Of a DNA stretch of 64,000 bases, positions 42,047 through 46,623 are shown in pieces (the first letter of the stretch is position 1; every line of letters begins with the position of its first letter). The DNA lies in assembly GCF_003703395.1 (NCBI RefSeq), contig NZ_RDQN01000009.1, positions 1 to 64,000 of the forward strand, written 5' to 3'. The notes beneath the pieces are model-generated. The model saw only the letters and a list, made by a program, of their open reading frames with translations, was not told where the DNA came from and made no database searches. The position numbers were made by a program, and so were the translations under genes. The DNA comes from Pseudoxanthomonas spadix. GTDB lineage: Bacteria; Pseudomonadota; Gammaproteobacteria; Xanthomonadales; Xanthomonadaceae.

Positions 42047-42214
42047 CTAGGCGTCTGTCGGGCTTTGGCGGTCGAGGCGAAAATTCGGCTGCGCGAGAAC
42101 AGATTTTCGCCGATTCGCCGCCCCATAGTGGTTCTATGGGGCAAGAAGCGACGGAAATATGGACCGCACAGCCGGATTTGCAGCCCGGCCGGCCAAAGTC
42201 CGACAGGCTCATAG
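42047..42214. repeat. 168-bp palindromic MITE-like element, copy A
   Basis: The ends are inverted repeats: CTGTCGGGCTTTGG at the left and CCAAAGTCCGACAG at the right. Inner palindromes have arms GCGAAAAT/ATTTTCGC and CCCCATA/TATGGGG. It is bounded by CTAG (42047-42050) and ATAG (42211-42214), as expected for insertion into CTAG with TA duplication, the IS630/Tc1 pattern. A second copy (45357-45524) in opposite orientation differs at about ten positions by manual alignment, without gaps. It fills the cls-radical SAM divergent spacer. Confidence 0.85.
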
Positions 42215-45356: not shown

Positions 45357-45524
45357 CTAGCAGCCTGTCGGACTTTGGTCGGCCGGGCTGCGAATCCGCC
45401 TGTGCGGTCCATCTTTCCGTCGCTTCTTGCCCCATATAACCACTATGGGGCGGCGAATCGGCGAAAATCTGTCCTCGCGCAGACGAATTTTCGCCTCGAC
45501 CGCCAAAGCCCGACAGACTCCTAG
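45357..45524. repeat. 168-bp palindromic MITE-like element, copy B
   Basis: This is copy A in opposite orientation: CTAG (45357-45360) begins it and CTAG (45521-45524) ends it, with terminal inverted repeats CTGTCGGACTTTGG/CCAAAGCCCGACAG. It sits 36 bases upstream of mnmG and may carry or disrupt its promoter. Together the copies bracket 42215-45356 in inverted orientation. Confidence 0.85.
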
Positions 45525-45604
45525 CGGCGCCACGCGCGGCGAAATCAGGCGGCGCGATGCCTCGGCCTGAGGCGAAGCGGGTACTGGAGGCGGGACGCGA
45601 AAAG

Positions 45605-45621
45605 TTGGCACGGCTTCTGCG
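45605..45621 (+). promoter_or_regulatory. Sigma-54-type promoter
   Basis: TTGGCACGGCTTCTGCG: GG at 45607-45608, exactly ten bases, then GC at 45619-45620, with TGGCACG matching the full -24 element. The -12 box is CTGC rather than TTGC. A start site near 45631 is predicted. No protein gene begins within the next 100 bases on this strand; an intrinsic terminator does follow. Confidence 0.65.
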
Positions 45622-45630
45622 TCATACATC

Positions 45631-45752
45631 CTGCACCCATCGTGGCAAGCGACTTCGGGCGCCCAAGGCTGGTATTGGAACAGGGGCCAGCCGCTAGCGC
45701 ACGTTGGGGATGCAGGGGCCGGTAGTCGGGGGACTGCCGGCCCCATTTTTTT
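45631..45752 (+). ncRNA. Candidate sigma-54-dependent small RNA
   Basis: Predicted transcript of about 122 nt from the sigma-54-like start site to a strong terminator. Features visible: the 5' end CTGCACCC can pair with GGGGATGCAG just before the terminator, closing a rod. Inside, GGCTGG/CCAGCC encloses a loop containing GGA. Two further GGA motifs occur (GGGGATG, GGGGGACT). No good open frame with a ribosome site is present on either strand. No match to a known RNA family is recognised. Exposed GGA motifs would fit CsrA/RsmA binding, but this is speculation. Boundaries are approximate. Confidence 0.5.
45715..45752 (+). terminator. Strong intrinsic terminator of the candidate small RNA
   Basis: Stem GGGGCCGG plus TAGTC pairing with GACTG plus CCGGCCCC (13 bp including one T-G pair, loop GGGG 45728-45731), then A and seven T (45746-45752). 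Confidence 0.88.
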
Positions 45753-45796
45753 CCGGGCCAGATCCGGTGGGATCGGTCTTTGGAACAACGAAGCAA

Positions 45797-45836
45797 ACAA
45801 CAACGCCCGGGCAATGCCGGGCGTTGTTGTTTTTTG
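45797..45836 (+). terminator. Second intrinsic terminator
   Basis: A 14-bp perfect stem ACAACAACGCCCGG/CCGGGCGTTGTTGT with loop GCAATG, followed by T5 (the final stem T makes six). It lies about 45 bases after the first terminator in the same direction. The single-stranded stretch before it is A/C-rich (GGAACAACGAAGCAAACAAC). It may end a second short transcript or catch read-through. Confidence 0.85.
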
Positions 45837-45839
45837 GGC

Positions 45840-45898
45840 GCCGACGACCGGCAAGGGCCGGAACAGGGGGGATCCAGATTTCCCCACCGGACGTCGGC
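45840..45898. other. Structured intergenic element
   Basis: The outer stem GCCGACG-A-CCGG (45840-45851) pairs with CCGG-A-CGTCGGC (45887-45898) around an A-A mismatch. Inside, GGGGA can pair with TCCCC. The motif GGAACAGGGG repeats one found in the candidate small RNA (45677-45686). No T-tract follows on either strand, so it is not a plain terminator. Function unknown; the rest of the spacer to 45996 shows nothing further. Confidence 0.35.
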
Positions 45899-45996
45899 AT
45901 GGACGCTTTGAACATTTATACCCGGGTTACGTCATAAAACGACGCAACCGGTCAACCAGCGCTAGCTTGAATGGAGCGCACGGCACACGCAAGGGT

Positions 45997-46623
45997 TCAG
46001 CGCTCGTGACTGATCGGCCGAGTGCGGAAGTGAGACTTCCTTGGCAAAGACGGCGGCGCCGGGCGCGACTGCGCCGGGCCGGCCGATCCAGCAGGCATTG
46101 GTGGTGACTGCGGCATTTCGCCTTCGACAGGGGGCGGCATCGGTCGGCCGTTCGGCGAGCGCTGGCGGTTGGGCGATTGGGCACGTGCGCGGTGCTCATC
46201 GCGCATGGACGGTGGGCGCTGGTGACCTTCAGCGGGACGCCACGGGCGCGGGCCCCCGGTCGCTGGCCGATCGCCACGATTCCCGCCATCGGCAACCGGC
46301 GGCGGACGCTGGCCATGGCGGTGGTCATCATGGCCGTCGTGATGATCACGCCGCCGCGCCGGCGGATGGATCACATAGGAGGGACGGCTGTAATACCCGT
46401 AGAAGCCGGGCCAATATCCATAGCCACCGTAGCCGGCGCCATATCCGCCGTATCCATAGCGGTAGGCACCGCCGTAGCCGCCGTAATAGCCGCCCGGATA
46501 GGAATACCGGTAGCTGGGACTGCCGCTGTAGTAGCCACCGGCTGCGCCGCCACTGACCTGATCATAGGTCGCGCAGCCGCCCAGCCCCGCCAGGGCAATG
46601 GCGGAAAACAGGAGACGTTTCAT
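45997..46623 (-). CDS. Gly/Tyr-rich lipoprotein
   Basis: This 208-residue protein has a lipobox LAGLGGC at about residues 12-18. The mature part has three zones: a Gly/Tyr-rich repeat region (about 28-78, units such as GGYGGAYRYGYGGYG), a His/Asp/Arg-rich stretch (about 88-105, RRRDHHDGHDDHRHG) that could bind metal, and a Pro/Arg/Gln-rich tail to the end. Low-complexity composition prevents family assignment. Such Gly-Tyr lipoproteins occur at the outer membrane of several proteobacteria without known function. The stop is followed by the structured element and terminator region, which reads toward it. Confidence 0.75.
   Translation of the reverse strand: MKRLLFSAIALAGLGGCATYDQVSGGAAGGYYSGSPSYRYSYPGGYYGGYGGAYRYGYGGYGAGYGGYGYWPGFYGYYSRPSYVIHPPARRRDHHDGHDDHRHGQRPPPVADGGNRGDRPATGGPRPWRPAEGHQRPPSMRDEHRARAQSPNRQRSPNGRPMPPPVEGEMPQSPPMPAGSAGPAQSRPAPPSLPRKSHFRTRPISHER

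Follow-up and report, generated by a model that had tools for sequence, protein, structure and literature searches.

A sigma-54-type promoter of the small RNA asX1 and a convergent candidate RNA with a complementary loop

The window analysed here, a stretch of 64,000 nucleotides from Pseudoxanthomonas spadix, carries at 45605-45836 a sigma-54-type promoter directly before a terminator, and the locus raises the question of which RNA this promoter would drive and what that RNA may act on. A preliminary description, made from the letters alone, had proposed an undescribed small RNA with tandem terminators, to be judged by its conservation in relatives and given up on a match to a known Rfam family. 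The features of the plus strand are as follows.

45605..45620, plus strand: sigma-54-type -24/-12 promoter of asX1, TTGGCACGGCTTCTGC (letters and family comparison)
45634..45750, plus strand: small RNA asX1, RF02235 (Rfam match and covariation in relatives)
45677..45686, plus strand: hairpin-2 motif GGAACAGGGG of asX1, complementary to the loop of a second RNA, E2 (alignment A1)
45715..45751, plus strand: intrinsic terminator of asX1 with a GGGG loop (13-pair hairpin followed by ATTTTTTT)

The locus matched Rfam family RF02235 (asX1) over its full length (1-115) and scored 90.2 bits where the cut-off is 70, so the transcript is not undescribed. On this point the preliminary description, which had recognised no known family, fell on the very outcome it had named. 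asX1 was found in 128 of the 149 genomes of the window's family, as a single copy except in G077, where a second match lies at a contig end. From these 129 places 127 loci were taken (the place in G128 and the second in G077 were left out), and the only criterion for picking them was the asX1 model, in which the promoter is not included. Two-sided changes were observed in 28 of 36 base pairs with 97.1% of cells paired (97 distinct rows from 100 loci), and none of 500 shuffles reached any of five measures of covariation, which bears out the conserved stems that had been looked for in relatives. The stems of a three-way junction and the terminator hairpin were both recovered; alignments A2 and A4 were fitted to their own structures. 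The strong hairpin plus seven T reported at this place is the terminator listed above, and its loop was predicted as GGGG in 116 of the 127 loci by single-sequence folding. Six terminator-like sites were found in 3.5 kb (shuffles: mean 1.5, sd 1.2), and as a control for the GGGG loops 12 other terminators were obtained, too few to judge. A cut-off second copy of asX1 faces the first at a contig end in one locus (L018, 1-100), perhaps as an assembly artefact.

A second model that includes the promoter (R1) gave matches in 103 of 250 genomes of the order, among them family f12 and some of family f3; a few of its weakest matches look false. The weak hits L202-L206, L208 and L400 appear spurious on visual inspection. 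As R1 contains the promoter, part of the promoter conservation seen in f12 and f3 follows from the way the model was made. The discovery of asX1 is reportedly due to a 2012 paper. Reads of asX1 have been reported in other species (PMC12189769, PMC4652430), and the consulted portions of these two papers give no function for it and mention neither a sigma-54 promoter nor an adjacent partner RNA.

The near-consensus -24/-12 promoter with GG-N10-GC spacing that had been described is present as TTGGCACGGCTTCTGC, with GG at 45607-45608 and GC at 45619-45620. In relatives, TGGCA-N8..10-GC stands 27-30 nt 5' of asX1 in 125 of the 127 family loci, the two exceptions being TTGGTACGATTCATGC and CTGGAACGCTTCCTGC, and the columns TGG-N-A and TGC are invariant in all 127. 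This placement is beyond chance, as the same pattern occurred 264 times in 733,890 bases of the relatives' flanks (both strands), where TTGGCAYG-N4..6-TGC occurred once. The layout of a sigma-54-type promoter directly before a terminated small RNA is kept in the relatives, as the preliminary description had hoped to find. The asX1 model starts 14 nt past the GC of the -12 element, near the expected start of the sigma-54 polymerase, and the start site probably lies at about 45632. A divergent mnmG motif was detected 5' of asX1 in 117 of the 127 loci; in the ten loci that do not have it, TGGCA is kept in nine and TGGAA stands in one. In the literature searched on sigma-54 and Xanthomonas small RNAs, on sX13 and sponges, and on gidA/mnmG, neither the asX1 promoter nor the E2 RNA was found, and an earlier mention is possible; the near-universal sigma-54-type promoter, as read from the sequences, appears to be new.

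The sigma factor gene rpoN was matched in 146 of the 149 family genomes. Two of the three genomes with no rpoN match also gave none for asX1, one of them being 99% complete, and this joint absence gives only a hint of sigma-54 dependence. G034, a family genome of 99% completeness, gave no match for rpoN, asX1 or sX13. No conserved dyad for an enhancer-binding protein was found 5' of asX1 by dyad and k-mer counts over the family loci, which yielded the mnmG coding signal and G+C-rich noise. A box resembling TGTGA-N6-TCACA, which we take to be of the CRP/Clp type, lies beside the sigma-54 promoter, 60-100 nt 5' of asX1, in L002-L006, in group g17 only of the eleven groups aligned. The activators named for sigma-54 in Xanthomonas oryzae are FleQ, PilRX and PrpR, and in the consulted portion of the same review the Xanthomonas rows of the table list protein genes only (PMC8657755).

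Two further observations were made. In two loci of the same genus (L207, L209) a second R1 match is by eye a sigma-54-type promoter before a type IV pilin gene. In the window, a palindromic MITE-like repeat of 164 bases lies at 45361-45524, between the mnmG start (45321, minus strand) and the sigma-54 promoter, with a copy at 42047-42209; at least 31 near-full copies and one partial copy were counted in its own genome (40 of 60 candidates scored).

Beyond the asX1 terminator, the following features were identified.

45795..45832, strand not assigned: inverted repeat between asX1 and E2, possibly a two-way terminator (T6 on the plus side, U-rich on the minus side)
45840..45898, minus strand: hairpin core of the E2 RNA (model R2 match 45823-45909)
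45860..45869, minus strand: C-rich motif CCCCUGUUCC of the E2 loop (letters)
45964..45992, minus strand: weakly indicated candidate promoter of E2, TTGC-N-AAGCT (pattern present in 42 of 122 family loci and in 2 of 122 control windows)

The inverted repeat, which starts at 45795 after a gap from the asX1 end at 45750, had been read as a second perfect terminator. The repeat and its T6 on the plus strand hold; the tandem arrangement is not so simple, as a convergent minus-strand RNA lies beyond it. A terminator-like hairpin of the minus strand was found in the interval between asX1 and E2 in 52 of 122 family loci, compared with 5 of 610 shuffles. This second conserved RNA behind the supposed second terminator, on the other strand, not in Rfam and with a loop that complements asX1, had been missed.

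The E2 hairpin was located by the exact string GGAACAGG at 24-466 nt past asX1 in 122 of the 127 family loci. Model R2 added L015, L038, L041 and L121, giving 126 of 127, and in the one remaining locus (L111) the contig ends about 110 nt past asX1. E2 also stands beside asX1 in all 30 loci of families f12 and f3, and it was found in two further family loci. When 154 copies were folded on each strand, the ratio of G-U to A-C was 335:34 over the 18 pairs of the minus-strand fold and 34:87 over the 13 pairs of the plus-strand fold; this asymmetry indicates an RNA of the minus strand, convergent with asX1, and rules out E2 as a plus-strand RNA or a DNA element. Covariation supports the fold, with two-sided changes in 13 of 16 pairs and 97.9% of cells paired (100 copies). 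The loop invariance in alignment A3 is by construction, since the loci behind R2 were selected by GGAACAGGGGG; that of the stems is not. A joint fold of 95 loci predicted no 5' hairpin, and only the core is claimed.

With R2, one E2 copy per genome was found in 127 of the 250 genomes of the order (G344 is doubtful). Outside the order there was none in the class sample, as the five of 369 class genomes that matched all belong to this order. Among the named loci, at least 80 and including Xanthomonas, Stenotrophomonas, Lysobacter, Luteimonas, Pseudoxanthomonas, Thermomonas and Vulcaniibacterium, E2 was found in 75 of the 80 listed, 72 convergent with asX1 and three on its strand; in four of the five listed loci with no E2, asX1 lies within 640 bases of the locus end. 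L253 and L262 gave no E2 match at full sensitivity. No Rfam family reached its cut-off at E2, the best beside asX1 being psRNA14 (26.1 of 60 bits) and RcsR1 (19.8 of 60), and RF02232 (sX13) had no match in 45560-46100 at E up to 1. E2 appears to be a new, putatively transcribed RNA. TATA-like boxes were seen by eye at the 5' flank of E2 in 7 of 20 loci inspected (f2, f10, f11). On the minus strand at 45930-45955, 5' of E2, there is also a box TTGACC-N4-GCGTC-N-GACG, perhaps an operator, whose dyad occurs in 80 of 125 loci and in 4 of 127 control windows.

The two RNAs have complementary loops. In the window, GGAACAGGGG of asX1 (45677-45686) is the exact complement of CCCCUGUUCC of E2 (45869-45860, minus strand), and throughout the 60 loci of alignment A1 the motif GGAACAGGGG hardly varies. 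Among 122 family pairs the longest complement between asX1 and E2 was GGAACAGGGG in 71, GGAACAGGG in 23, GAACAGGGG in 11 and UGGAACAGGGG in four. When asX1 was shuffled, matches to E2 of at least 9 nt arose in 46 and of at least 10 nt in 17 of 366 trials, so for the family the length of the match is unusual only to a moderate degree. GGAACA alone is usually exposed according to single-sequence folding, AACAGG is fully unpaired in only 16 of 127 asX1 copies, and the motif of E2 has its UCC end within the inner stem; some pairs must therefore open for the loops to pair. Linked RNAs with complementary loops were also found in family f12, more weakly, with a perfect match of only 6-7 nt, and in four of its loci (L193, L198, L199, L200) with a match of 12 nt when G-U pairs are counted. 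In the f3 loci the sigma-54 sites are present and the matches to E2 are 7 nt long, in two of three apparently outside the loop.

In family f11 the sigma-54 RNA is reduced, to about 57 nt. In all six of its loci, a sigma-54-like site TGG(C)C/ACG-N5-TGC precedes an RNA of 56-60 nt made up mostly of a G-rich 5' portion (CAGGGGGAAUC or a near variant) with a terminator behind it. This RNA is a perfect complement of the E2 loop over 11 nt in L394, L395 and L397 and over 14 nt in L399, and with G-U pairs it matches over 11 nt in L396 and 12 nt in L398, whereas shuffled f11 RNAs reached 11 nt once in 1200 trials. The f11 match lies on the 5' side of the E2 loop and that of the window's family on the 3' side; the register differs, and thus the letters have changed while the complementarity was kept. 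As far as sequence comparison can tell, the f11 match is the best evidence for pairing between asX1 and E2, and the odds for pairing were raised because of it. No sigma-54 site was found beside E2 in the loci of families f2, f4, f5, f9 and f10. In one f5 locus (L392) R1 matches weakly, at 12.5 bits, and GGAACAGGGG can be seen by eye next to E2, with no recognisable sigma-54 site.

Building on the promoter, both RNA structures, the strand of E2, the linkage and the complementarity that the compared sequences establish, we infer strongly, and in a form open to test, that asX1 pairs with E2. We hold it somewhat probable that the two convergent small RNA genes form one system, in which asX1, induced through sigma-54, pairs with and antagonises the E2 RNA. 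A signal would activate an enhancer-binding protein, upon which the sigma-54 RNA polymerase would make asX1 from the plus strand up to the first terminator. E2 would be an independent small RNA gene of the minus strand, and the G-rich asX1 loop GGAACAGGGG would pair with its C-rich loop CCCCUGUUCC. Such pairing may block or destabilise the E2 RNA and so keep it away from the targets of E2, which are presumably messages with a G-rich start. The sigma-54 signal would thus turn on an antagonist of a regulator with a C-rich loop. As for targets of asX1 itself, a cold-shock-like gene (csp) of the window's own genome has a perfect 12-nt complement of the asX1 loop across its ribosome site (L129, 1501-1527; C1:326607). 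csp was rejected as a general target: the pattern CCTGTTCCAA-N0..4-GGAG is no commoner in the family than its reversed control, each being present in 8 of 149 genomes, and only in the window's genome does it stand next to csp.

Part of the sequence of asX1 also suits another C-rich RNA. The GGGG terminator loop and CAGGGG could imitate the GGGG targets of the three C-rich loops of sX13 (RF02232), and asX1 would then be mainly a sponge for sX13. sX13 occurs in 142 of 149 family genomes and 42 of 47 f12/f3 genomes, its predicted loops carry CCCC, and its repression in Xanthomonas needs C-rich loops and G-rich target motifs according to the portion consulted of PMC3771888; as it is nearly universal, its presence or absence is uninformative. 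We regard this as rather unlikely, because more of asX1 is matched by the E2 loop (the hairpin-2 loop is predicted to pair at -21.0 kcal/mol with a 19-nt piece of E2 against -7.4 to -8.0 with 8-nt pieces of sX13 loops, unequal lengths that make the comparison only indicative), because the f12 copies inspected have no GGGG terminator loop while sX13 is present, and because the f11 RNA matches E2 beyond the shared CAGGGG. It is unlikely, too, that asX1 and E2 act separately, their matching loops being the relic of an inverted duplication or of a shared ligand. E2 does occur in f2, f4 and f10 with no sigma-54 RNA detected beside it, and the short perfect match of f12 points the same way; against it, f11 keeps the complementarity with different letters and register, and the adjacency of asX1 and E2 survives rearrangement, as in L015 and L038, where E2 lies just 5' of asX1 on the same strand, and in the three named loci with both on one strand.

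E2 could also be the leader or the 3' end of a neighbouring message and not a small RNA gene. In f3, f5 and f11 it shares the strand of mnmG and precedes that gene; it stands directly before the mnmG start in G136 (L401), where asX1 was not found, and in the window it comes after a minus-strand lipoprotein-like frame. The neighbours vary, however, with an rpmB-like gene following in f2 and other genes in f4 (names by eye), and L015 and L038 carry E2 beside asX1 with no mnmG motif. E2 as the leader of one fixed gene is excluded by these differences, and the message reading as a whole is improbable. The preliminary description had further compared the locus with RsmY/Z, citing GGA motifs exposed in loops. 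RsmY and RsmZ carry GGA in several hairpin loops. The GGA of hairpin 2 is exposed in most family copies of asX1, and to this extent the observation stands; according to A1 it is the one loop with GGA, the terminator loop being GGGG as a rule, so that several GGA loops were not found and the analogy is weak. The f11 RNAs carry GGGGGAAUC or GGGGGAGUC in their single-stranded part and not GGA loops, and we consider a sponge of the CsrA/RsmA protein very improbable.

The favoured reading, asX1 as an antagonist of E2, has likenesses among known systems. GlmY is under sigma-54 control. CrcZ and CrcY have an RpoN promoter directly before a decoy RNA (PMC8657755, in the portion consulted), and GlmY acts as a decoy RNA (PMC7073468, likewise in part); in asX1, unlike these, the likely partner is another RNA. 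CJnc190 and CJnc180 of Campylobacter jejuni also combine a small RNA with a C/U-rich loop, a G-rich target at a ribosome site and a cis-encoded antagonist (PMC8687705, from the part consulted). Those two RNAs are mutually antisense, whereas the asX1 and E2 genes do not overlap, match only in their loops and include one with a sigma-54 promoter. E2 resembles sX13 in its C-rich apical loop and in its conservation across the same group, and differs in having one C-rich hairpin, another locus and no RF02232 match. The antagonist reading is drawn by analogy with CJnc190 and with sX13, whose C-rich loops act in Xanthomonas to repress messages that begin with G-rich regions (PMC3771888).

Taken further, E2 may be an order-wide, undescribed, single-copy core regulator acting after transcription, with the sigma-54-driven asX1 as its dedicated loop-matched antagonist, kept adjacent through rearrangements and in one family little beyond an antisense stretch and a terminator; we judge the chances of this wider view to be about evenly balanced. 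The group in which asX1 is conserved includes Xanthomonas, Stenotrophomonas and Lysobacter, and its dedicated sigma-54 promoter would tell when to look for it, as the neighbour RNA would hint at its role. Should E2 prove to be transcribed, Rfam has lacked a conserved RNA gene that is present in well-studied genomes, and a regulator with a C-rich loop would possess its own inducible off switch.
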